Assembly (NCBI GenBank): GCA_023511615.1
Contig: JAIMBL010000005.1
Span: 1 to 64,000 of the forward strand
Length of the DNA stretch: 64,000 nt
Direction of reading: 5' to 3'
Source: Leptolyngbyaceae cyanobacterium HOT.MB2.61
GTDB taxonomy: Bacteria; Cyanobacteriota; Cyanobacteriia; Leptolyngbyales; Leptolyngbyaceae
The notes under the pieces were generated by a model. That model made no database searches, was not told the DNA's origin, and saw only the letters and a list, made by a program, of their open reading frames with translations. Of the stretch, positions 22,055 through 37,767 are shown in pieces; positions within the stretch are counted from its first letter, which is position 1; each line of letters begins with the position of its first letter. Both the position numbers and the translations under genes were made by a program.

Positions 22055-23653
22055 ATGAATTCAGGATCTTCTATTGCTGTTCAAGCGAAGCGTTCATTGG
22101 AGTTAAAGCCCACAGAGTTACGGTGCCCCTGTGGGGGTGAGCATCTGCCCCAAGACCACTGGAGATACCTGGAAGGAATGCCGCAGAACCCTGTAGACTA
22201 CATCGATGACTTGATGAAAATGGGGTTATTCAGGCCAGATGCTCTTTCTCTGGCAAACAGCCTGACAGGAGCAGAATTCAGGAAAGAACTGTTTTTGCAA
22301 AATATCGCTGGGGGTAATCAGGCGCGTCGTCGGTTCTGTGAGGAGTTGGTTCAAGAGGCGGGTGGACTGGAAGCGGCGTTTACGGCAGCGTTTGGTCCCC
22401 AGGCGGCAGAATTCTTTGGCAATACGATGAAGCGGGGCAGCTACAGCCGACGGGAGTTTATTAAGCGGGTTGTGGTCTCCGCCGCCCTGGTGGGAATGGC
22501 AAGCTGTGCCACACGGCAGGAACAACCAACTGCCCAATCCTCTCCAACAGGCGGTGGTGGCGCCAACCTGGAGAAGAAGGAATTGACGATTGGTTTCATT
22601 CCGATTACCTGCGCAACCCCCATCGTGATGTCCGATCCGCTGGGCTTTTATGAGAAGCACGGGTTAAAGGTGACGGTGAAAAAGATGCCCAACTGGGCCG
22701 CGGTGAGAGACTCGGCGATCGCTGGTGAACTGGATGCCTACCACATGCTCTCCCCCATGCCGATTGCTATCACCATGGGTCTGGGTTCTGCGGCTTTCCC
22801 CATCAAGCTTGCCAGCATCGAAAACATCAACGGACAGGCCATCACCGTCGCCATGAAACACAAGGACACGGTGAAAGAGGCCAAGGATTTCAAGGGCTTC
22901 AAGATTGGGGTACCATTTCCCTTCTCCATGCACAACCTGCTGATCCGTTACTACTTGGCGGCGGGTGGGCTTGACCCCGACAAGGACGTGCAAATTTTCC
23001 CCGTCCCCCCTCCAGACAGCGTGGCCAAAATGACCGCTGGAGAACTGGATGCCATGCTGATGCCCGATCCCTTTAACCAGCGGGCTGTCTACGAAAAGGT
23101 CGGCTTTATCCACATGCTGACCAGAGACCTGTGGGATGGACATCCCTGCTGTGCCTTTGCTGCCAGCCAGCAATGGATCGACGCCAATCCCAATACCTTT
23201 AGAGCGGTGAACAAGGCGATCGTCGATGCGGCAGGTTATGCCGACGATCCGGTTAATCGGCAGAAGGTTGCAGAAGCACTGATTGAGCGGAAGTATCTGA
23301 ACCAACCCCTCCCTGTGGTGCAGGCAGTGCTGACCGGCAAATTTGAAGATGGCCTGGGTAATACCCAGGAGGTTCCGGATCGCATCGGCTTTGACCCCTA
23401 CCCCTGGAAGAGTTTCGCCAAGTGGATTTCTTCCCAACTTGTTCGCTGGGATTTGATGCCGAAGGAAAAGGCCGATTACGACAAAATTGCCAACGAGATC
23501 TTTCTCACGGATGTGGCGGCAGAACTTCAGAAAGAACTGGGGCAGGCACCCCCTGCTGAAACGGAAAGGGTTGAAAAGCTGAAGTACGACACCTTTAACC
23601 CCGAAAATCCAACTGCCTACGTAAACGACCAGATTAAGAAGTTCAAGGTGTGA
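22055..23653 (+). CDS. cynA: Cyanate ABC transporter substrate-binding protein, with N-terminal extension
   Basis: 532-residue member of the NrtA/CmpA/CynA family. The binding-protein body begins near residue 172 (ELTIGFIPITCATPIVM), with GELDAYHMLSPMPIAI and GELDAMLMPDPFNQRAV as typical family stretches. The export signal is internal: SRREFIKR has the twin arginines at 132-133, then a hydrophobic run and lipobox GMASC with Cys151. So it carries Tat and lipoprotein features. The preceding ~125 residues (with CPCGG near residue 29) look like a folded soluble region. The gene order with a permease, ATPase and cyanase identifies the substrate as cyanate. A shorter start at ATG 22,427 would give a normal Tat signal, but lacks a clear ribosome-binding site. 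Confidence 0.85.
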   Translation: MNSGSSIAVQAKRSLELKPTELRCPCGGEHLPQDHWRYLEGMPQNPVDYIDDLMKMGLFRPDALSLANSLTGAEFRKELFLQNIAGGNQARRRFCEELVQEAGGLEAAFTAAFGPQAAEFFGNTMKRGSYSRREFIKRVVVSAALVGMASCATRQEQPTAQSSPTGGGGANLEKKELTIGFIPITCATPIVMSDPLGFYEKHGLKVTVKKMPNWAAVRDSAIAGELDAYHMLSPMPIAITMGLGSAAFPIKLASIENINGQAITVAMKHKDTVKEAKDFKGFKIGVPFPFSMHNLLIRYYLAAGGLDPDKDVQIFPVPPPDSVAKMTAGELDAMLMPDPFNQRAVYEKVGFIHMLTRDLWDGHPCCAFAASQQWIDANPNTFRAVNKAIVDAAGYADDPVNRQKVAEALIERKYLNQPLPVVQAVLTGKFEDGLGNTQEVPDRIGFDPYPWKSFAKWISSQLVRWDLMPKEKADYDKIANEIFLTDVAAELQKELGQAPPAETERVEKLKYDTFNPENPTAYVNDQIKKFKV

Positions 23654-23656
23654 CCC

Positions 23657-24487
23657 ATGACCAACAACGTGTTGCAAGTGACAACGACACGGGCGCGATC
23701 AGTAACGCTAACAACAAACCAAAAATCCTTCTTGCTGTTCCTGATCCTTTTGATCACCTTCCTGGGGGGTTGGGAACTGGGAGCCAGGATGGGGGGGTTC
23801 CTGCCCATCATGCCTTCTGCCAGCCAGACTATCAAAGATTTCTGGTTCTGGGTCTCCAATCCGTTCTTCGACTATGGTCCTAATGACCAGGGTATTGGCT
23901 GGTTACTGCTGACCAGCCTGCGACGGGTGTTGACGGGCTTTTTGATTGGGTCAGCGATCGCCGTTCCCCTGGGGATTCTGCTGGGCTTATCCAGGGTGGC
24001 CGCGAGAGCGGTAGATCCCTTCATTCAGGTTCTACGCCCAGTTTCCCCACTGGCCTGGCTACCCCTGGGACTGGCGCTGATGAAAGATTCAGAAAAAACC
24101 GCCCTGTTTGTTATTGCCATTACCAGCATCTGGCCGACACTGAGCAACACTATTTTTGGCGTAAGCAATGTCGATCCCGCCTACCTGAATGTTGCCCGTA
24201 CCCTGGGAGCTTCCCGCTGGCGCACCATCCGCAAAGTGATTTTGCCCGCTGCGGCACCCAGCATTGTGGCGGGTTTGCGTATCAGTCTGGGCATCGCCTG
24301 GCTAGTCATTGTGGCGGCAGAAATTCTGTTAAGTGGCGGAATTGGCTACTTCATCTGGAACGAGTGGAACAACCTGAAGATCACCAGCATCATCACGGCA
24401 ATTCTGATCATCGGCCTGGTTGGACTGGTGATGGATCGGCTATTTGGCCTGTTGCAAACCAAAGTGTCCTTTGGGCAGAGGTCATAA
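23657..24487 (+). CDS. cynB: Cyanate ABC transporter permease
   Basis: 276 residues, about six membrane helices of the BPD_transp_1 fold. The cytoplasmic EAA loop is seen as [20 protein letters not shown]. It is related to the NrtB/SsuC permeases for nitrate, bicarbonate and sulfonate. The ATG is three bases after the cynA stop, with AAGGTG as ribosome-binding site inside the cynA end. It works with CynA and CynD in the plasma membrane. Confidence 0.92.
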
Positions 24488-24488
24488 T

Positions 24489-25379
24489 ATGCACTTCCCT
24501 GACTCCAGCACCATGACTCCCCCCCTTAACCCGGACATCGCTGCCGCTCAACTGTTGATCCAGAATGTGTCGAAAGTGTATTACGGCAGACAAACCTGGG
24601 TCGATAAGTTACTCAAGCAAACTTCTCAGGATTTTGTGGCGATCGCCGACATTAATTTGCAAATTGCATCCAACACCTTCGTTTCCATCATTGGTCCCTC
24701 CGGCTGCGGCAAATCCACTCTGCTTAACATCATTGCCGGGCTTTTGCGCCCATCCACGGGTTCCATCATTCTGAATGGGGAGCCGATCAAGGGTCCTGGA
24801 CCTGATCGCGGCGTCGTTTTTCAGAACTATGCCCTCATGCCCTGGATGAATGTGGCAGAAAACCTGCGGTTTGCGATTGAAACTGTCTACCCCAACATGC
24901 CTCTGGTGCAACAAAAGAGCATTGTTCACGAATATATCGATCTGGTTGGGCTAAGTGGAGCTGAACACAAACATCCCCATGAACTCTCTGGCGGGATGAA
25001 ACAGCGGGTTGGCATTGCCCGTGCCCTGGCCATCAACCCCGAAATTTTGCTGATGGATGAGCCGTTTGGAGCCCTGGATGCACTTACACGGGGCTTTTTG
25101 CAAGACGAAGTGGCTCGCATCTGGGAGCAACAGCGCAAGACCGTGATTCTCATTACCCACAGTATCGAGGAAGCCCTGCTGCTGTCCGATCAGATTGTGA
25201 TGATGACACGTGGACCCGCCGCCAAAATTGCCGAAGTGTTGAATATACCGTTTCCTCGCCCGCGCAAGCGAGAGGAACTCGATCAATACTCTCACTATCA
25301 CGAGCTAAAGGCTGCACTGGAACAGCACCTTTCCCGCGAAACCCGTGCGGTAGAAGAAGCCCGCATTCGAAGAAAGTAG
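24489..25379 (+). CDS. cynD: Cyanate ABC transporter ATP-binding protein
   Basis: 296 residues. Walker A is GPSGCGKST, the signature is LSGGMKQR, and Walker B is [12 protein letters not shown], followed by the switch His in [13 protein letters not shown]. It belongs to the NrtD/SsuB-type ATPases and powers CynB. The ATG overlaps nothing but follows the cynB stop by one base; ATG at 24,513 (MTPPLNPD) is an alternative start. The central operon position supports the CynD name. Confidence 0.92.
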
Positions 25380-25407
25380 TCCCCAAATGTGTGAAAAGGA
25401 GCAAGCG

Positions 25408-25857
25408 ATGTCAAACGTTGAGATTCCCGCCATCAGTCAGAAACTATTGGATGCCAAGAAATCGAAGGGCATGACCTTTGCCGATTTGGAAAAAGCTGTT
25501 GGGCGAGATGAAGTCTGGATTGCATCAGTGTTTTACCGCCAGTCAACCGCATCTGAAGAGGAAGCAACCAAAATTCTGGAGGCGTTGGGATTGCCGACTG
25601 ACCTGGCATCCGAACTGACGGTCTATCCGACTAAGGGGCTGGGTCCCGTTGTTCCAACCGATCCGCTCATCTACCGCTTCTACGAAATCATGCAGGTCTA
25701 TGGCATGCCGATGAAAGATGTGATTCAGGAAAAATTTGGTGATGGTATTATGAGCGCGATCGACTTCACCCTGGATATTGAGAAGGTTGAAGATCCGAAG
25801 GGCGATCGCGTCAAGGTCATCATGAACGGTAAATTCTTACCCTACAAGAAATGGTAG
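25408..25857 (+). CDS. cynS: Cyanate hydratase (cyanase)
   Basis: 149 residues, the normal cyanase length. An N-terminal HTH-like helical domain is followed by the catalytic domain. The active-site residues are present: Arg and Glu in [12 protein letters not shown] and Ser in [10 protein letters not shown]. It converts cyanate and bicarbonate to ammonia and two CO2 (via carbamate) as a decamer, providing nitrogen and CO2. I chose the ATG with AAGGAG eight bases upstream rather than one at 25,387, which would add MCEKEQA. It closes the cynABDS operon. Confidence 0.95.
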
Positions 25858-26958: not shown

Positions 26959-29244
26959 ATGGAAAATGATCTACTGACATCAGAATTGAAGGGACACCGT
27001 ACACTGGCAACAGTTGTGTTTACGGATTGTGTTGGCTTTAGTGCCCGGATGTCGGTCAATGAAGACCATACCCTGGACCTGATTCGACGGGATCTGAAAT
27101 TGATGAAACAGGTCTGTGATGAGTATGAGGGGCGTGTACTCAAATCCACTGGGGATGGCTTACTGATGTGCTTTGTCAGTGCAGTCAAAGCGGTTGAGTA
27201 TGCAATTGAAATTCAGAAACGGCTGATTGAAAAAGCCGCCAACCGCTCTCCGGAAGATTCACTCCAGCACCGCATCGGCATTCACCTGGCAGACATTTTT
27301 ATTAACGAAACAGATGTGATGGGCAATGGCGTCAATATCGCTGCCCGCCTGCAAACCCTGGCAGAACCGGGGGGAATCTGCATTTCCCAAACGGTTTATG
27401 ATGTTGTGAAGGCGGGGATGCAGTTAGAAACCCGCTATCTTGGCCCTCAGGAACTGAAGAACATTCGTGAGGTTGTTCCCACCTACAAGATTATCCTCGA
27501 CCCAACCGCAGAATCTGCCGATCCCTATCTGGAAACCATTCGCAGTTTGGAACAAAGCCAAAACTTCACCCGCATCAAGAAACTTCTGGTTTATGTCTGT
27601 AAAAACACCTGGGAAGGGGATGCAAACCGGTTAGCCAGGATTGATTTGAGAGATTTGCTGAATGAATTGCTGCGGCTTGCCCCCACATCAGAGCGATTGC
27701 AGCAGGCTTTAGAAGCGGCGGTTAAAACGTTGAGTAAGCCTGCTGAGTATTCCCTGGTTGCCAGTGTCATCGTCGAGGAAATTAGCAAGCTCTGCTTCAA
27801 TCTCCAGCAGCAGGCCCAGTTTGGGCACTCTGCCTCGCAGCCTGTGACAGACGCGATCGCCCCCCTCACTCCCGTTGCCAGCAACCCCAATCCTCTCTAT
27901 GAGCAGGTCGCTCGAGAACTGGAACAGACGGGAAATTTGCTGCGAATTAAAAAATTAATTTACTACGTCTGCCGCAGGCGTTGGGAAAACGACCCGAACC
28001 AGCTAGACAACCTCTATCTACCCCACTTGGTTGCCGAACTTCATCAACGACTTCCCAGCCCTGAACTGCTGCGGACGACGCTGAACGAGTTCATTCAAAC
28101 CCTCAGCAAACAGGGAGAATACACCCTGGTCGGGAATGCGATCGCCAGCAAATTTCAGCGGCTTTACGCCAGCTCTAAGGCAACAGATCAAACCCAGGCC
28201 AACCAGCCTCCGCTTACTCCCGCGGATGAAACCGCACTGTTGACTGCTGATGTCCTATCAGAATTAAAGCCAGAACCGAAGGTAGATGATCCCTACTACC
28301 AGATTGCTGCCGAACTGGAACAGGACCCCAACGCCAGTCGGATGAAGAAGCTCATTCTCTACGTCTGTCGGCGGCGGTGGGAAAGTGATCCAATCGCACT
28401 TCAACGCATTGACCTGGGGGCCTTGCTGCAAGAACTCTACCAGCTAACCCATACACGAGAGCAATTAAAACTGGCCCTCAATGCGGTGGCCCAATCCCTC
28501 AACAAACGGGAAGAATATATGGCGATCGCCGGCACCATCATCAGGCAGATGGGTAAACTCTACCCCGACTACCAGGAATCGGAACCGGAGCCTGAAGCAC
28601 CACCAGCACCAGTCAGTTCTCAACCTGAGCCAGCTCCCAACCCAGTTGCTGAAATCGTTTCAACCTCTCCTCCCGAAGAAACTGAAGACCTTGAAGTACC
28701 TGAAGAAGCCACACCCGCCATCGATCCCAACACCATAGAAACCCCGTTTGACAATCCCCAGAAACCCTTCACCAGTCTATTTGACTACCGACTGGGAATT
28801 ATGAAGTATGCCAACCCGTTACGGGCAAAGATTCTCCTCTTCTCTGCTCTGCACGGCGAATTTGGCTATAGCAACCAGGACTGGCTTACCCTCAAGATGT
28901 ACGAACTCGATGGGTTGATGCGGCAAGTCATCAAAAGTTGCAAATTCTACACGGAACTGGAAGCCCTCCTGTATGGCGCAGCCCGGCGGTTGAGAGAGCC
29001 TGAGGAAAATGTTGAAACAGCAAGTGCTATGATTCGCTGTCTCCGTTCCCTCTACCTCTACCGCAGTTCCCATCCGGAAATCGACAATCCTACGGAGGAA
29101 ACCTGCATCAGCCTCGACGATTTTGAGGAAACTACTCTGGAAATTGCCCACACCAGCAATGAAGATGAGCTTACATGTCAGCTTCTGATTCAACCGCCAA
29201 CTGAAGAACACTCACGGGAATCCAACCAGACAGCTATCGAGTAA
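26959..29244 (+). CDS. Class III nucleotide cyclase with fourfold-repeated C-terminal domain
   Basis: 761 residues, cytoplasmic. The cyclase homology domain (about 15-180) has both metal Asp residues, D23 in VVFTDCVGFS and D66 in KSTGDGLL, and the transition-state motif GNGVNIAARL. It should make cAMP or cGMP. The rest is a ~95-residue helical unit repeated at 188-280, 311-404 and 443-536, each with (R/K)(I/M)KKL(L/I)xYVC(R/K) and a Trp a few residues on. A fourth, diverged copy lies at about 605-700. Acidic, Pro-rich linkers (EPEPEAPPAPVSS) join the last copies. I do not recognise the repeat as a named domain. It could bind a partner, a ligand or the cyclase itself. No ribosome-binding site is strong. 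Confidence 0.9.
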   Translation: MENDLLTSELKGHRTLATVVFTDCVGFSARMSVNEDHTLDLIRRDLKLMKQVCDEYEGRVLKSTGDGLLMCFVSAVKAVEYAIEIQKRLIEKAANRSPEDSLQHRIGIHLADIFINETDVMGNGVNIAARLQTLAEPGGICISQTVYDVVKAGMQLETRYLGPQELKNIREVVPTYKIILDPTAESADPYLETIRSLEQSQNFTRIKKLLVYVCKNTWEGDANRLARIDLRDLLNELLRLAPTSERLQQALEAAVKTLSKPAEYSLVASVIVEEISKLCFNLQQQAQFGHSASQPVTDAIAPLTPVASNPNPLYEQVARELEQTGNLLRIKKLIYYVCRRRWENDPNQLDNLYLPHLVAELHQRLPSPELLRTTLNEFIQTLSKQGEYTLVGNAIASKFQRLYASSKATDQTQANQPPLTPADETALLTADVLSELKPEPKVDDPYYQIAAELEQDPNASRMKKLILYVCRRRWESDPIALQRIDLGALLQELYQLTHTREQLKLALNAVAQSLNKREEYMAIAGTIIRQMGKLYPDYQESEPEPEAPPAPVSSQPEPAPNPVAEIVSTSPPEETEDLEVPEEATPAIDPNTIETPFDNPQKPFTSLFDYRLGIMKYANPLRAKILLFSALHGEFGYSNQDWLTLKMYELDGLMRQVIKSCKFYTELEALLYGAARRLREPEENVETASAMIRCLRSLYLYRSSHPEIDNPTEETCISLDDFEETTLEIAHTSNEDELTCQLLIQPPTEEHSRESNQTAIE

Positions 29245-29331: not shown

Positions 29332-30327
29332 ATGGACGCAAGTGAGTTATTGCAGCGCTACCAGGCAGGAGAAGTTGATTTTCGAGGAGCGAACCTCAGT
29401 AATGCCGGTTTAGAAGGTGCAGATCTGATTGGGGTAGACCTGACAGGGGCAGACCTGGCGAATGCAAACTTGATCTTTGCCTATCTCAACCGGGCCAATC
29501 TGAGCAAAGCCAACCTGATGGGTACCCGACTGTGCGGTGCGAACCTGAGCCAGGCAGATCTACTCAACGCCAACCTGCGGGACACCGACCTGCACGGGGC
29601 TAACCTGTACGGGGCTGACCTGCGCGGGGCTGATATTACCCTGGCGAATCTGCTGGATGCCAACCTGATGACGGCTGATTTGAGAAGTGTGAACCTGAGC
29701 GGAGCTAACCTGCGCGGTGCCTGCCTGCGGGGTGCCAACCTGCGCTTTGAAAAACGCTGTTATGATAGGGCGAACCTGCGCGGCACAGACCTGCGAAAAG
29801 CTGATCTGCGCGGGGCCAACCTGACCGGAGCGGACCTGACCAAAGCCGACCTGCGGGGTGCCGATCTGAGCGAAGCCAGTCTGAGGGAAGCGAATTTGAC
29901 TGGTGCGAACCTGACGGGGGCTTTCATGAAAGGCGTTTTTCTGACCGATGCTGTGCTAGCTGAGGCCCATCTGAGACAGGCCCACTTGGTTGATGCCAAA
30001 CTGGAACGGGCCAACCTGACCGAAGCTAACCTGGCGGCGGCTGACCTCTCTGGGGCTAATCTGACGGCTGCTATTCTCACCAAAGCCACCCTGACCCAGG
30101 CAACCCTCAAACGAGCACGGCTGAATCGCTCCGATTTAAGTCGGGCAGACCTGCGGCAGACAGACCTGGTAGGAGCCACCCTCATCGAGGCTTACCTGGG
30201 GCGAGCGGATCTGCGTGATGCCAACCTGACGGAAGCTAACCTGGCCAAGGCAGAACTGAGTAGCGCCAATCTTGCTGGAGCAAACTTGCAGGGAGCCACC
30301 ATGCCCGATGGGTCAATTCGAGACTGA
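29332..30327 (+). CDS. Large pentapeptide repeat protein
   Basis: 331 residues made almost entirely of A(D/N)LxxA(D/N)L pentapeptides, roughly sixty units, which should form a long right-handed quadrilateral beta-helix. A short break ([14 protein letters not shown]) near residue 140 interrupts it. The first 20 residues ([17 protein letters not shown]) form a capping helix common in this family. There is no signal peptide, so it is cytoplasmic. Some pentapeptide proteins mimic DNA and protect gyrase, but nothing here shows that. The last 15 bases overlap the ispF 3' end on the other strand. Confidence 0.93.
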
Positions 30328-30804
30328 GGATGCTAATAACAAAACAATGGCATAGGCAGCAATTCCTTCTTCTCGTCCAGTGGCATCTAATTTTTCATTC
30401 GTGGTCGCTTTGATACCAACCTGATTGGATTGGAGGTTGAGGACGGTAGAGAGGCGATCGCGCATGGCCGGAATATGGGGCTTTAACTTGGGCCGCTCGG
30501 CTACAATCACTGAATCGATGTTGCCAATCTGCCAGCCCCTGGCTTGAATCAATCGATCTACCTGAGCTAGCAGTTCCAAGCTATCTGCGTCTTTCCACTG
30601 CGGGTCTGAAGGCGGAAAGTAGTGACCTATATCTCCTAAACTGAGCGCTCCCAGCATCGCATCCATAATGGCGTGGGTTAGGACATCGGCATCGCTGTGC
30701 CCCAGCAACCCCAGTTCATGGTCAATTTTCACCCCCCCTAAAATCAGTGGGCGCTCTGGGACCAGACGATGAATATCGTAGCCGTTGCCGATGCGGATGT
30801 TCAT
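30313..30804 (-). CDS. ispF: 2-C-methyl-D-erythritol 2,4-cyclodiphosphate synthase
   Basis: 163 residues, standard length. [11 protein letters not shown] carries the metal-binding Asp and His, [13 protein letters not shown] carries the next His, and [14 protein letters not shown] is the substrate loop. It forms the cyclic diphosphate in the MEP isoprenoid pathway, a trimeric enzyme needed for carotenoids and chlorophyll phytol. The gene is convergent with the pentapeptide gene and overlaps it by 15 bases. A short low-complexity AG-rich spacer follows its start. Confidence 0.96.
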
Positions 30805-33721: not shown

Positions 33722-33941
33722 TGAAGACAAATATCGAAGAAAAATTTCACAGTTATTTAAACTACGCTTCAATGATCTGGCATGATGCGTAATAGTGGGT
33801 AAAGCACGCAGCGATCAGGCAGCAACCATGAACAGGAGCAGTGTCCCTACTTCGGTTACGAAATTATTGGAGCGCTGGTTTCAGGGTACGTCTGGGCGTG
33901 TTTCTACGCCACAACTCGAATTGCAATCGTTTGGAGAGAAG

Positions 33942-34766
33942 ATGCCCCAGTCTATAAAAACAGCCATTATGGTGATTGGGGGAGCGGAAGATAAGGTTCA
34001 CGGGCGAGAGATCCTGCATAGCTTTTTTAATCGCTCTGGTTCAACGGATGCCCGGATTGCGATTATTCCTTCTGCTTCCCGTGAACCAGCCATTATTGGC
34101 GATCGCTACCGCACCATCTTTGAAGAAATGGGGGCAAAAGGAATTGAAATCCTGGACATCCGCGATCGCGATCAGTGTGACGATCTCCTGATGCAGAGCT
34201 ATGTGGAAAACTGCACGGGCGTTTTTATGACGGGCGGGGATCAGTTAAGGCTATGTGGGCTTCTGGCGGATACTCCTCTTATGAATATTGTGCGGCAGCG
34301 AGCCCAGCGAGGTGAGATGACCTTGGCGGGGACGAGTGCAGGTGCTGCCGTAATGGGTCATTATATGATTGCGGGGGGAGGGAGTGGGGAATCTCCTAAC
34401 CGTTCTCTAGTTGATATGACAACTGGCTTGGGTATTATCCCGGAAGTGATTGTAGATCAGCACTTTCACAACCGTAATCGAATGGCCCGTTTAATGAGCG
34501 CGATCGCGGCTTATCCCAATCAATTGGGGATTGGGATTGACGAAGATACCTGCGCTGTTTTTGAGGGAGATGGGCTGATTCAGGTGATAGGCAAAGGCTG
34601 TGTCACCATCCTTGATCCAGCAGAGCTTTCCCACACCAACCATCCCTATATTGGAGCAACCGATCCAATCAGTCTGGGCAACTTACGGTTGCATGTGTTG
34701 AGCCATGGCGATCGCTTCGATTTGCGTAAGCGAAAGTCCATCTTCTCCGACTGCCACTTCTCCTAG
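33942..34766 (+). CDS. cphB: Cyanophycinase
   Basis: About 274 residues from the ATG with GGAGAG six bases upstream, close to the ~271-residue length known for the family. IMVIGGAEDKVHGREIL starts the domain. The nucleophile elbow is AGTSAGAAVMGH (Ser), with VDQHFHNRNRMARL (His) and GIGIDEDTCAVFEG also conserved. It is a serine exopeptidase that releases beta-Asp-Arg dipeptides from cyanophycin. A GTG at 33,795 would add 49 residues that do not look like family sequence. It sits directly upstream of cphA, giving the usual storage-and-mobilisation pair, though 238 bases apart. Confidence 0.95.
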   Translation: MPQSIKTAIMVIGGAEDKVHGREILHSFFNRSGSTDARIAIIPSASREPAIIGDRYRTIFEEMGAKGIEILDIRDRDQCDDLLMQSYVENCTGVFMTGGDQLRLCGLLADTPLMNIVRQRAQRGEMTLAGTSAGAAVMGHYMIAGGGSGESPNRSLVDMTTGLGIIPEVIVDQHFHNRNRMARLMSAIAAYPNQLGIGIDEDTCAVFEGDGLIQVIGKGCVTILDPAELSHTNHPYIGATDPISLGNLRLHVLSHGDRFDLRKRKSIFSDCHFS

Positions 34767-35004
34767 TCCGTCGCCTGGATCGAACTCCAACTGGCTGCTG
34801 TGTTTAGTTTGCTTGCTCGTCTCTGCTTCGTTTCAGCCCAATTAATTGGGGCTGCTTTGTTGTAAAACTGTCCATCGTGAACAGTTAGTGCCCTTTTCGC
34901 ATCTGAAACTGGGATGTTGTTCCTCTTCATCCCTGTATCGGGCAATCTTTTGCCCTCCTATAACGAGCCCACAATCGCGATTGGAATCCTACTCATCATT
35001 AGCC

Positions 35005-37767
35005 ATGAAGATACTCAAAGTCCAGACACTACGGGGTCCAAACTACTGGAGCATTCGACGCCAAAAGCTGATTGTAATGCGTCTGGATCTGGAGGAACTG
35101 GCCGATAGACCTTCCAATACCATTCCCGGTTTCTATGAAGGTTTAACTGAAGCCTTACCCAGTCTGGTAGAACACTTCTGCTCACCGGGCTGCCGGGGTG
35201 GTTTCTTGAGCCGGGTACGGGAAGGTACCATGATGGGCCACATCGTTGAACACGTGGCGCTGGAGCTTCAGGAACTGGCCGGAATGTCAGCGGGCTTTGG
35301 GCGCACCCGTGAAACTTCAACACCGGGCGTTTACCAGGTGGTCTTCGAGTATCTGGATGAGCAGGCCGGGCGCTATGCCGGACGTGCTGCCGTTCGCCTT
35401 TGCCAGAGCATCATCGACACAGGGCACTACCCTCAGGAAGAACTGGAGCAAGATCTGAAAGACCTGCGGATGCTGTGGGCAGATGCGTCCCTGGGCCCCA
35501 GCACCGAAGTCCTGGTCAAGGAAGCGGAAGCCAGAGAGATTCCCTGGTTTCAGCTCGGTGCCCGCTCCATGATTCAGTTGGGCTATGGGGTTCACCAGAA
35601 GCGACTCCAGGCTACTTTGAGCAACCAGACGGGCATTCTGGCGGTCGAACTGGCCTGTGATAAGGAAGGGACAAAGAAAATTCTGCGGGATGCAGGCGTT
35701 CCAGTGCCACGGGGTACAGTGATTGGGTATCTGGATGAACTGGAAGAGGCGATCGCTGCCGTAGGAGGCTTCCCGATTGTGATCAAGCCTCTGGATGGCA
35801 ACCACGGACGCGGCATCACCATCGACATCAACTCCTGGGAAGCCGCCGAAGAAGCCTACGACGCTGCCAGAGAAGTGTCCCGGCAGGTTATCGTCGAGCG
35901 CTACTACCGGGGACGGGATCACCGCATTCTGGTGGTGAATAGCAAAGTAGTAGCCGTCGCCGAGCGGGTTCCTGCCCATGTGAAGGGGGATGGTCGGTCA
36001 ACGATCGAAGAACTGATTGAGAAAACCAACCAGGACCCCCGCCGGGGCGAAGGTCACGACAATGTGCTGACCAAAATTGAGGTAGACCGAACCAGCTGGC
36101 AACTGCTGGAGAAACAGGGCTATACCCTGGATACCGTCCTGCCCGAAGGTGAGATCTGCTATCTGCGAGCAACCGCAAACCTCAGCACAGGAGGTACTGC
36201 CGTCGATCGCACCGACGATATCCATCCTGAAAACGTCTGGCTGGCCCAACGGGTTTCCAAAATTATTGGTCTGGACATTGCGGGCATTGATGTGGTCACC
36301 CCCGACATTACCCGCCCCCTACGCGAAGTGGATGGGGTAATTGTCGAAGTCAACGCCGCTCCCGGTTTTCGCATGCATGTGTCTCCCAGCGAAGGGATTC
36401 CTCGCAATGTGGCAGAACCCGTTCTGGATATGCTGTTCCCACCGGGTACCCCCAGTCGGATTCCCATCGTGGCGATTACGGGCACCAATGGAAAAACCAC
36501 AACCACCCGTCTGATTGCCCATATTTTTAAGCAAACGGGGCAGGTGGTGGGTTACACCACGACCGATGGTACCTACATTGGCGATTACCTGGTCGAACCC
36601 GGTGACAACACGGGACCCCAGAGTGCTCAGTTAATTCTGCAAGACCCCACCGTTGAAGTGGCCGTTCTGGAAAGCGCCAGGGGTGGAATTTTGCGATCGG
36701 GTTTGGCCTTTAGCACCTGCGATGTGGGTGTCGTCTTGAATGTTGCGGCTGACCACCTGGGCATTGCTGATATCGATACACTTGAGCAGATGGCACAGGT
36801 CAAAAGTGTGGTTGCCGAAACAGTGATGCCAAATGGCTACGCCGTTCTAAACGCTGAAGATCCATTGGTGGCAGAGATGGCAAACCGGGTGAAGGGACAA
36901 ATTGCGTACTTTTCGATGAATCCCGATAACCCCTTGATTCGTTCCCATACCCAGCAGGGTGGATTGGCTGCTGTTTACGAAAATGGTTATCTGTCCATTC
37001 TGAAAGGAGACTGGACGCTGCGGATTGACCAGGCCGTGAATGTGCCCCTCACCCTGGCAGGGCGTGCCCCCTTTATGATTGCCAATGCCCTGGCGGCCAG
37101 TCTGGCAGCATTTGCTCAGGGTGTACGGATTGAGGACATCCGGGCGGCTCTGGCGACCTTCTCGGCCTCGACGCAACAAACTCCAGGACGAATGAATCTG
37201 GTAAATTTGGGCAAGTTCCATGCGCTGGTTGACTATGCCCATAACCCCCATAGCTACGAAGCATTAGCAGGTTTTGTGAAAAACTGGCCCGGTGAGCGGA
37301 TTGGAGTGGTGGGCGGACCGGGCGATCGCCGCGACGAAGACTTTATTACTCTAGGGCGACTGTCTGCTCAGATGTTTGATCGCATCCTCATTAAGGAGGA
37401 CGATGACAATCGTGGCAGATCCCGTGGGGAGGCTGCCAGACTTATTGCCGAAGGGATTGAACAGATCAAACCCGATGCCCGCTATGAAACCATTCTGGAC
37501 GAGGCGACGGCCATTGAAACGGCATTAAATACGGCTTCCCTGAATGGGCTGGTGGTGATTTTACCAGAGAGTGTCAAACGCGCCATTAACCTGATCAATG
37601 CCCGTCGGCCCCAATCTGAAGTAGAGGCGGTGATGGCCTTCCCCGCTCCGTCTCCTCAAAAGAGTGTCCCTCACACCGCCAATGGCAGTTCCGAACAGTC
37701 AGAATCCGTTGTCGCCGAATCTGTTGAATATGTCTCAACGGAATATGTCTCAACGGAAGTTGTTTAA
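35005..37767 (+). CDS. cphA: Cyanophycin synthetase
   Basis: 920 residues. The N-terminal domain starts MKILKVQTLRGPNYWS. The ATP-grasp half (about 165-480) contains GFPIVIKPLDGNHGRGI and VEVNAAPGFRMH. The Mur-ligase-like half begins at VAITGTNGKTTTTRLI (P-loop) and ends with DYAHNPHSYEAL and VVGGPGDRRDEDF. It alternately adds Asp and Arg to build the nitrogen store cyanophycin without ribosomes. The last ~45 residues are Ser/Val/Glu-rich and low in complexity. I chose the ATG at the family N-terminus; upstream in-frame sequence is not family-like. The stop overlaps by four bases with the convergent hybrid kinase. Confidence 0.97.
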   Translation: MKILKVQTLRGPNYWSIRRQKLIVMRLDLEELADRPSNTIPGFYEGLTEALPSLVEHFCSPGCRGGFLSRVREGTMMGHIVEHVALELQELAGMSAGFGRTRETSTPGVYQVVFEYLDEQAGRYAGRAAVRLCQSIIDTGHYPQEELEQDLKDLRMLWADASLGPSTEVLVKEAEAREIPWFQLGARSMIQLGYGVHQKRLQATLSNQTGILAVELACDKEGTKKILRDAGVPVPRGTVIGYLDELEEAIAAVGGFPIVIKPLDGNHGRGITIDINSWEAAEEAYDAAREVSRQVIVERYYRGRDHRILVVNSKVVAVAERVPAHVKGDGRSTIEELIEKTNQDPRRGEGHDNVLTKIEVDRTSWQLLEKQGYTLDTVLPEGEICYLRATANLSTGGTAVDRTDDIHPENVWLAQRVSKIIGLDIAGIDVVTPDITRPLREVDGVIVEVNAAPGFRMHVSPSEGIPRNVAEPVLDMLFPPGTPSRIPIVAITGTNGKTTTTRLIAHIFKQTGQVVGYTTTDGTYIGDYLVEPGDNTGPQSAQLILQDPTVEVAVLESARGGILRSGLAFSTCDVGVVLNVAADHLGIADIDTLEQMAQVKSVVAETVMPNGYAVLNAEDPLVAEMANRVKGQIAYFSMNPDNPLIRSHTQQGGLAAVYENGYLSILKGDWTLRIDQAVNVPLTLAGRAPFMIANALAASLAAFAQGVRIEDIRAALATFSASTQQTPGRMNLVNLGKFHALVDYAHNPHSYEALAGFVKNWPGERIGVVGGPGDRRDEDFITLGRLSAQMFDRILIKEDDDNRGRSRGEAARLIAEGIEQIKPDARYETILDEATAIETALNTASLNGLVVILPESVKRAINLINARRPQSEVEAVMAFPAPSPQKSVPHTANGSSEQSESVVAESVEYVSTEYVSTEVV

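Follow-up and report, generated by a model that had tools for sequence, protein, structure and literature searches.

The window analyzed here, i.e. a stretch of 64,000 nt from the genome of Leptolyngbyaceae cyanobacterium HOT.MB2.61, contains a gene whose product combines a nucleotide cyclase domain with four copies of a helical unit, and it raises the question of what such an array does on a cyclase. The reading frame of this gene is open from the ATG at 26959 to the stop at 29244. As described below, the genomic context favours an adaptor or scaffold role of the repeats, and the larger finding is a core of two genes rather than the cyclase: the helical domain is widespread and its partner, encoded by the adjacent gene, is near-obligate. 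The features of both genes are summarized in Table 1.

Table 1. Features of the cyclase/helical-repeat gene and its partner gene (positions in the window)
Feature	Position	Strand	Details
Whole gene: adenylate-cyclase-like domain, 3 N-type and 1 C-type putative helical adaptor domains	26959..29244	+	761 aa
Class III cyclase domain, ~residues 13-181	26995..27501	+	PF00211, PDB 3mr7
Helical copy 1, N-type, residues 190-278	27526..27792	+	N-type 104 bits, C-type 25
Predicted disordered linker, copy 1 to copy 2	27793..27894	+	pLDDT <50 at residues 288-308
Helical copy 2, N-type, residues 313-405	27895..28173	+	N-type 103 bits, C-type 22
Predicted disordered linker, copy 2 to copy 3	28174..28290	+	pLDDT <50 at residues 407-441
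Helical copy 3, N-type, residues 445-536	28291..28566	+	N-type 106 bits, C-type 33; alone pLDDT 91.8
Predicted disordered linker rich in Pro/Glu, ahead of the C-type copy	28567..28773	+	pLDDT <50 at residues 541-604
Helical copy 4, C-type, residues 606-700	28774..29058	+	C-type 119 bits, N-type 16; in a clade with all last copies
Predicted disordered C-terminal tail, residues 701-761	29059..29241	+	pLDDT <50 at residues 702-761
Partner gene, located 87 bp downstream and encoding a pentapeptide-repeat protein of 331 aa	29332..30327	+	PF00805, 292 bits

The original prediction had placed a class III cyclase domain ahead of the repeats, which was borne out by a match to PF00211 (Pfam; residues 17-177, 47.8 bits versus a cut-off of 21.9) and by the similarity of residues 13-189 to PDB entry 3mr7 (E 7e-26), the best solved relative of this part of the protein. 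The domain contains D23 and D66, K62 and D119, and N126 and R130, which correspond, as is established for class III cyclases, to the metal residues, the adenine-specifying pair and the transition-state residues, respectively. All six are kept in 25-26 of the 26 cyclase-bearing relatives. Because these key residues are present and conserved, the domain is predicted to be an active adenylate cyclase, converting ATP into cAMP. Class III cyclases act as dimers. The catalytic domain with all six key residues, including the K/D pair, is common to the window protein and the class III adenylate cyclases (PF00211; e.g. 3mr7, Ma1120 and LipJ, 1ybt), whereas the array of helical domains is absent from these solved relatives.

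The two closest other cyclase domains of the same genome (59% identity) are located on different architectures, and this branch of cyclases thus occurs on several signalling scaffolds. In one of them (L162:1299-5402, C365), the cyclase, 59% identical to that of the window, precedes an NTPase-like region (GASGSGKSS) and an extended series of WD40-like repeats; the whole reads as a cyclase-STAND-WD40-like protein. The other (L002:1477-2613, C167; 378 aa) carries, behind its cyclase, two copies of a different short helical unit (..AIGPIA..), and these C-terminal units gave no Pfam match above the cut-off.

Profile analysis confirmed that a unit of ~90 residues is repeated in the window protein, with boundaries (Table 1) lying a few residues from those proposed earlier. 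Copies 1-3 are pairwise 39-43% identical, and their alignment scores (179-205) greatly exceed those of shuffled sequences (mean ~27, maximum of 500 shuffles 46-58; z = 31.6-33.4). When aligned directly, copy 4 resembles copy 3 most (z = 6.0), followed by copy 1 (z = 3.4) and copy 2 (z = 0.4). Despite this weak direct alignment, copy 4 is the same domain as copies 1-3, because the family profile detects it at residues 606-700 and its helices have the same arrangement, six in number, in the full-length model.

A tree of 81 copies, originating from 27 relatives and the window protein, revealed that all of the last copies (28 of 28) constitute one side of a fully supported branch, with the 53 other copies apart. 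The last copies form an old subtype (C-type), which is distinct from the remaining copies (N-type) and has been kept separate across the class. The original prediction of a "diverged fourth copy" therefore stands with regard to its assignment to the domain, as judged by profile and model, but not with regard to its nature: it is not a decayed copy, but a representative of the old and conserved C-terminal subtype. With a separate profile used to call each subtype, the products of a non-redundant set of 87 repeat genes were found to have mainly the architectures N-N-C (38), N-C (23) and N-N-N-C (18), and N-type copies without a C-type copy occur on ComFB and WD40 proteins. The domain has a conserved hydrophobic/aromatic core that includes W and C. 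In one relative (L045:5440-8196), the linker ahead of the C-type copy has grown into a long GEGKGEGK repeat, while the flanking domains are conserved.

We compared 112 copies of the domain with 24,736 Pfam and 18,950 NCBIfam models, none of which matched more than two of the copies, and all of these matches were weak. The PDB sequence matches were mostly to designed coiled coils and other helical proteins. Identity with a known domain was rejected, since the searches of Pfam, NCBIfam and PDB sequences gave scattered chance matches only. The earlier view that the unit has no known name and is a candidate undescribed signalling module on a cyclase is upheld, with the addition that the domain also occurs on other signalling proteins. 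Of the checks proposed with it, the profile search of the repeat matched no well characterised domain, and the structure prediction (AlphaFold) produced a confident six-helix bundle. The latter was obtained for a single copy (copy 3) aligned with 41 homologous copies (pLDDT 91.8, pTM 0.82), with helices at positions 7-16, 21-33, 40-45, 48-58, 62-75 and 79-94. The full-length model, whose alignment places each copy in its own columns and carries no repeat-to-repeat information, shows copies 1-4 with one common pattern of helices, and with pLDDT <50 in the stretches between them; its cyclase part, for which the 11-row alignment was too shallow, also has pLDDT <50. The array is, according to these models, best described as beads on a string and not as a solenoid.

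Structure searches with the domain model gave no significant match in the libraries searched, and pyrin (death-fold) domains weakly led two of them. Pyrin ranked first in the PDB (E 0.78, TM 0.37-0.39 for the best match) and first and second among viral models (E 0.36, TM 0.44 for the best match), and full-length ASC ranked third when the whole protein was used. Like the pyrin and other death-fold domains (ASC2, ASC, NLRP), the window domain has six helices in ~90 residues, and their lengths in the single-copy model, helix lengths alone being compared, fit the death fold, a Greek key of six helices. In contrast, the E values (>0.3) and TM scores (0.37-0.44, short of the value usually required for a common fold) lie outside the limits that we used for the death fold (E <0.001 or TM >0.5), and no sequence similarity was found between the two. 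The order of the matches is suggestive, but none is significant, and death-fold membership was retained as a lead only.

The domain was found in 216 of the 291 sampled genomes of Cyanobacteriia (74%), mostly at one locus per genome. In the phylum-wide sample all of the matches listed belong to the same class, and the plasmids and phages searched contained no match. A search of genome contigs, the reach of which is limited to close relatives, yielded ten loci from cyanobacteria, e.g. Stenomitos and Leptolyngbya. The small genomes sampled from one family (f2) lack the domain, as do several genomes from other families. All copies present in the genome of the window lie within the single gene described here.

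The protein encoded directly downstream matches the pentapeptide-repeat family PF00805 in 11 stretches, far above the cut-off (20.2 bits). Clustering of the neighbours in 50 loci revealed that a pentapeptide-repeat gene is the one constant companion of the repeat gene (48 of 50 loci; same strand, nearly all directly downstream); the other neighbours change across families. Among the 87 repeat genes, 68 are directly followed on the same strand by a pentapeptide gene (~330 aa), and the number rises to 71 when adjacency is counted on either side, since a few genomes have the two genes side by side in the opposite order. In 13 of the 68 downstream cases the two genes overlap or abut, seven of them by exactly 4 bp, as expected of genes forming one transcript. 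A scan for consensus promoters gave no match between or upstream of the two genes, a result that is uninformative either way. The length of the partner is nearly fixed (330-331 aa in most cases), and the proteins are 49-75% identical to that of the window over a fold that is otherwise repetitive; they share the invariant stretch GACLRGAN, after which comes a charged, conserved non-repeat segment (REEKR-Y).

The presence of the two genes is also linked. In a set of 44 genomes, all 11 that carry the repeats also had a partner ortholog (at least 286 bits), and it was scored as absent (no more than 233 bits) from each of the 33 that do not (Fisher p 1e-10, not corrected for relatedness). An adjacent partner accompanies 71 of the 80 proteins with a C-type copy versus none of the seven without it (p 2e-6, not corrected for shared ancestry); one of these seven (L050) is cut off by the end of its contig, which may be why it shows no C-type copy. 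As regards the nine C-type proteins without an adjacent pentapeptide gene, two are located at contig ends, and in one genome, of family f26, the ortholog is present but lies elsewhere. In one small genome (L144:8229-8954 and G030:C1:1950869-1951849), a strongly diverged repeat gene lies apart from its pentapeptide ortholog, and both genes are kept. The evolutionary distances of the pentapeptide protein correlate more closely with those of copy N1 (rho 0.65) than with those of the C-type copy (rho 0.42). Support from co-evolution for docking of the C-type copy on the pentapeptide protein was rejected, because this copy is not singled out.

The enzyme in front of the repeats is far less constant. 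The N-terminal part of the 87 repeat proteins contains a cyclase in 24 cases, a Ser/Thr kinase in three and neither of these in 60. On the tree of the pentapeptide proteins the cyclase label changes eight times, or seven times after correction of L043, whose contig begins inside the cyclase and which is only seemingly cyclase-free. The label is clearly clustered, yet not of a single origin on that tree. Since it changes several times, the two-gene core outlives the enzyme. The Ser/Thr kinase precedes N- and C-type domains at L088:7204-9666, L142:7159-9528 and L129:7912-9660, and at L142 the pentapeptide gene is located 61 bp downstream of the kinase-bearing repeat gene. Paralogs carrying a single N-type domain on ComFB proteins were found at L131:7463-8521, L136:7814-8491 and L137:8341-9396 (ComFB match 53.9-69.7 bits, cut-off 25). 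ComFB is a receptor of c-di-nucleotides, which controls pili and competence (PMC12313861). A further paralog (L135:8476-10971; 831 aa) combines an N-type domain with a sub-threshold CHAT-like region and WD40 repeats. The paralogs having only the N-type domain on ComFB or WD40 proteins have no adjacent partner. The optional nature of the cyclase, the ancient subtype of the fourth copy and the constant ~330-aa pentapeptide partner had all been missed by the original prediction.

We propose, and give it about an even chance, that the repeats are an unnamed six-helix multivalent adaptor, which forms together with the pentapeptide protein a constant two-gene core with exchangeable signalling outputs. 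The repeats would work as a multivalent connector on flexible linkers, and different lineages would attach different outputs to the N-terminus of the core: adenylate cyclase here, and a Ser/Thr kinase or nothing elsewhere. By analogy, the N-type copies may bind to one another, or to similar domains of partner proteins, which would cluster the enzyme. The C-type copy may dock on the beta-helix of the pentapeptide protein, which would act as a scaffold or a competitor; it is co-occurrence that points to this copy, as the comparison of distances did not favour it over N1. Such an assembly would bring cyclase chains together, and could in this way set the site and strength of cAMP output. In a bolder form of the proposal, which we regard as distinctly unlikely, the domain would be a new death-fold-like (pyrin-like) adaptor family that dates back to the early evolution of Cyanobacteriia and forms homotypic assemblies on a dedicated pentapeptide beta-helix, with interchangeable outputs (cAMP, phosphorylation, c-di-nucleotide binding). 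If this were true, it would be a housekeeping relative of assemblies known from immunity.

Several other explanations were considered. The repeats could be ligand-sensing domains, each six-helix bundle binding a small molecule and relaying its state to the cyclase or kinase. The presence of variable enzymes ahead of one regulatory region fits a classical sensor, and the conserved core with its W and C could make a pocket; however, 60 of the 87 repeat proteins have no cyclase or kinase to regulate, disordered linkers of 20-60 residues are poorly suited to direct allostery, and the pentapeptide partner is left unexplained, which makes this explanation unlikely. It is very improbable that the domains form a rigid structure or a solenoid of the TPR/HEAT type, or serve as tethers, and have no specific adaptor role. 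They are indeed all-alpha and in tandem, and their weak structural neighbours include helical repeat proteins, but each copy is modelled as a closed six-helix domain (pLDDT 91.8) separated from the next by a low-confidence linker, no TPR or HEAT family scored above the cut-off, and the distinction between the two subtypes has been maintained throughout the class. The repeat and pentapeptide genes might also be linked by inherited gene order only, the function of the latter being unrelated. Gene order can persist without interaction, and the distances of the two proteins correlate only moderately. Nevertheless, the two genes stay paired in different families whose other neighbours have all changed, presence and absence of the two genes are tied genome by genome, and adjacency is kept in the few genomes in which the order is reversed; we consider this explanation quite improbable.

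The locus could, finally, be an anti-phage or conflict system, in which the cyclase makes an alarm nucleotide (Pycsar-like) or the repeat is an effector-associated domain (EAD). EADs and bacterial death-like domains were described by Kaur et al. 2020/2021 (PMC7159879, PMC8195603). The EADs are small, non-enzymatic and mostly all-helical domains with cyclase, kinase and WD40 partners (PMC7159879), and the window domain shares both of these traits, being fused to several signalling domains (cyclase, kinase, ComFB, and WD40 with a weak CHAT match); the combination of an adaptor with a cyclase, a kinase or a WD40 protein with a CHAT-like part resembles EAD proteins (PMC7159879, PMC8195603). In addition, the closest cyclase paralogs in the same genome include the cyclase-NTPase-WD40-like protein, and PycC of PADLOC weakly matches the cyclase (33 bits). 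On the other hand, the window domain differs from the EADs by its tandem copies, its constant pentapeptide partner and the lack of a ternary conflict core nearby. No EAD family was present among the Pfam matches listed for the 112 copies, and hhalign gave a probability of 1.2% for EAD1, the only EAD compared profile to profile. EAD membership was rejected despite the similar usage, because the two defining features tested, i.e. profile similarity and linkage to a conflict-system core, both fail. Pycsar likewise consists of a nucleotide cyclase (PycC) beside a neighbouring effector gene, but its effector is a TM or TIR protein, whereas the neighbour here is a pentapeptide protein and the locus is broadly inherited rather than patchy. 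Neither a PycTM nor a PycTIR effector was found beside the window cyclase, and the pentapeptide neighbour gave no PADLOC match. The locus mostly occurs once per genome, is present in 74% of the sampled genomes of the class, has no match in the plasmids and phages searched, and has a recurrent partner that is never a known toxic effector; a role in conflict is therefore highly unlikely.

The proposed pairing of the adaptor with a pentapeptide protein has a precedent in HetL-HetR, an established case of a cyanobacterial pentapeptide protein binding a signalling protein and, in 2020, only the second protein-protein complex known for a pentapeptide-repeat protein (PMC7476756). HetL (All3740) is a pentapeptide-repeat protein like the partner described here, and it binds the regulator HetR. 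The partner differs from HetL and other cyanobacterial pentapeptide proteins in that it constitutes a separate ortholog group of near-fixed length, contains the REEKR-Y segment and is tied to the helical-repeat gene. The open-access journal literature searched contained no description of the repeat/pentapeptide pair. Dozens of pentapeptide-repeat proteins are encoded in cyanobacterial genomes. In the present case, a single ortholog group is linked, in most of the class, to one particular unnamed adaptor domain, so that both its partner and its role can be tested directly. The domain would define a new family linking cAMP, Ser/Thr phosphorylation and ComFB.

The remaining genes near the pair were assigned by sequence reading. 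The pentapeptide gene (29332-30327, + strand) and a convergent, ispF-like gene (30313-30804, - strand) overlap tail to tail by ~15 bp. Upstream of the repeat gene (22055-25857), there is an ABC nitrate/cyanate-type transporter-like operon followed by a cyanase-like gene, and the region 33795-37767 contains cyanophycinase-like and cyanophycin synthetase-like genes.
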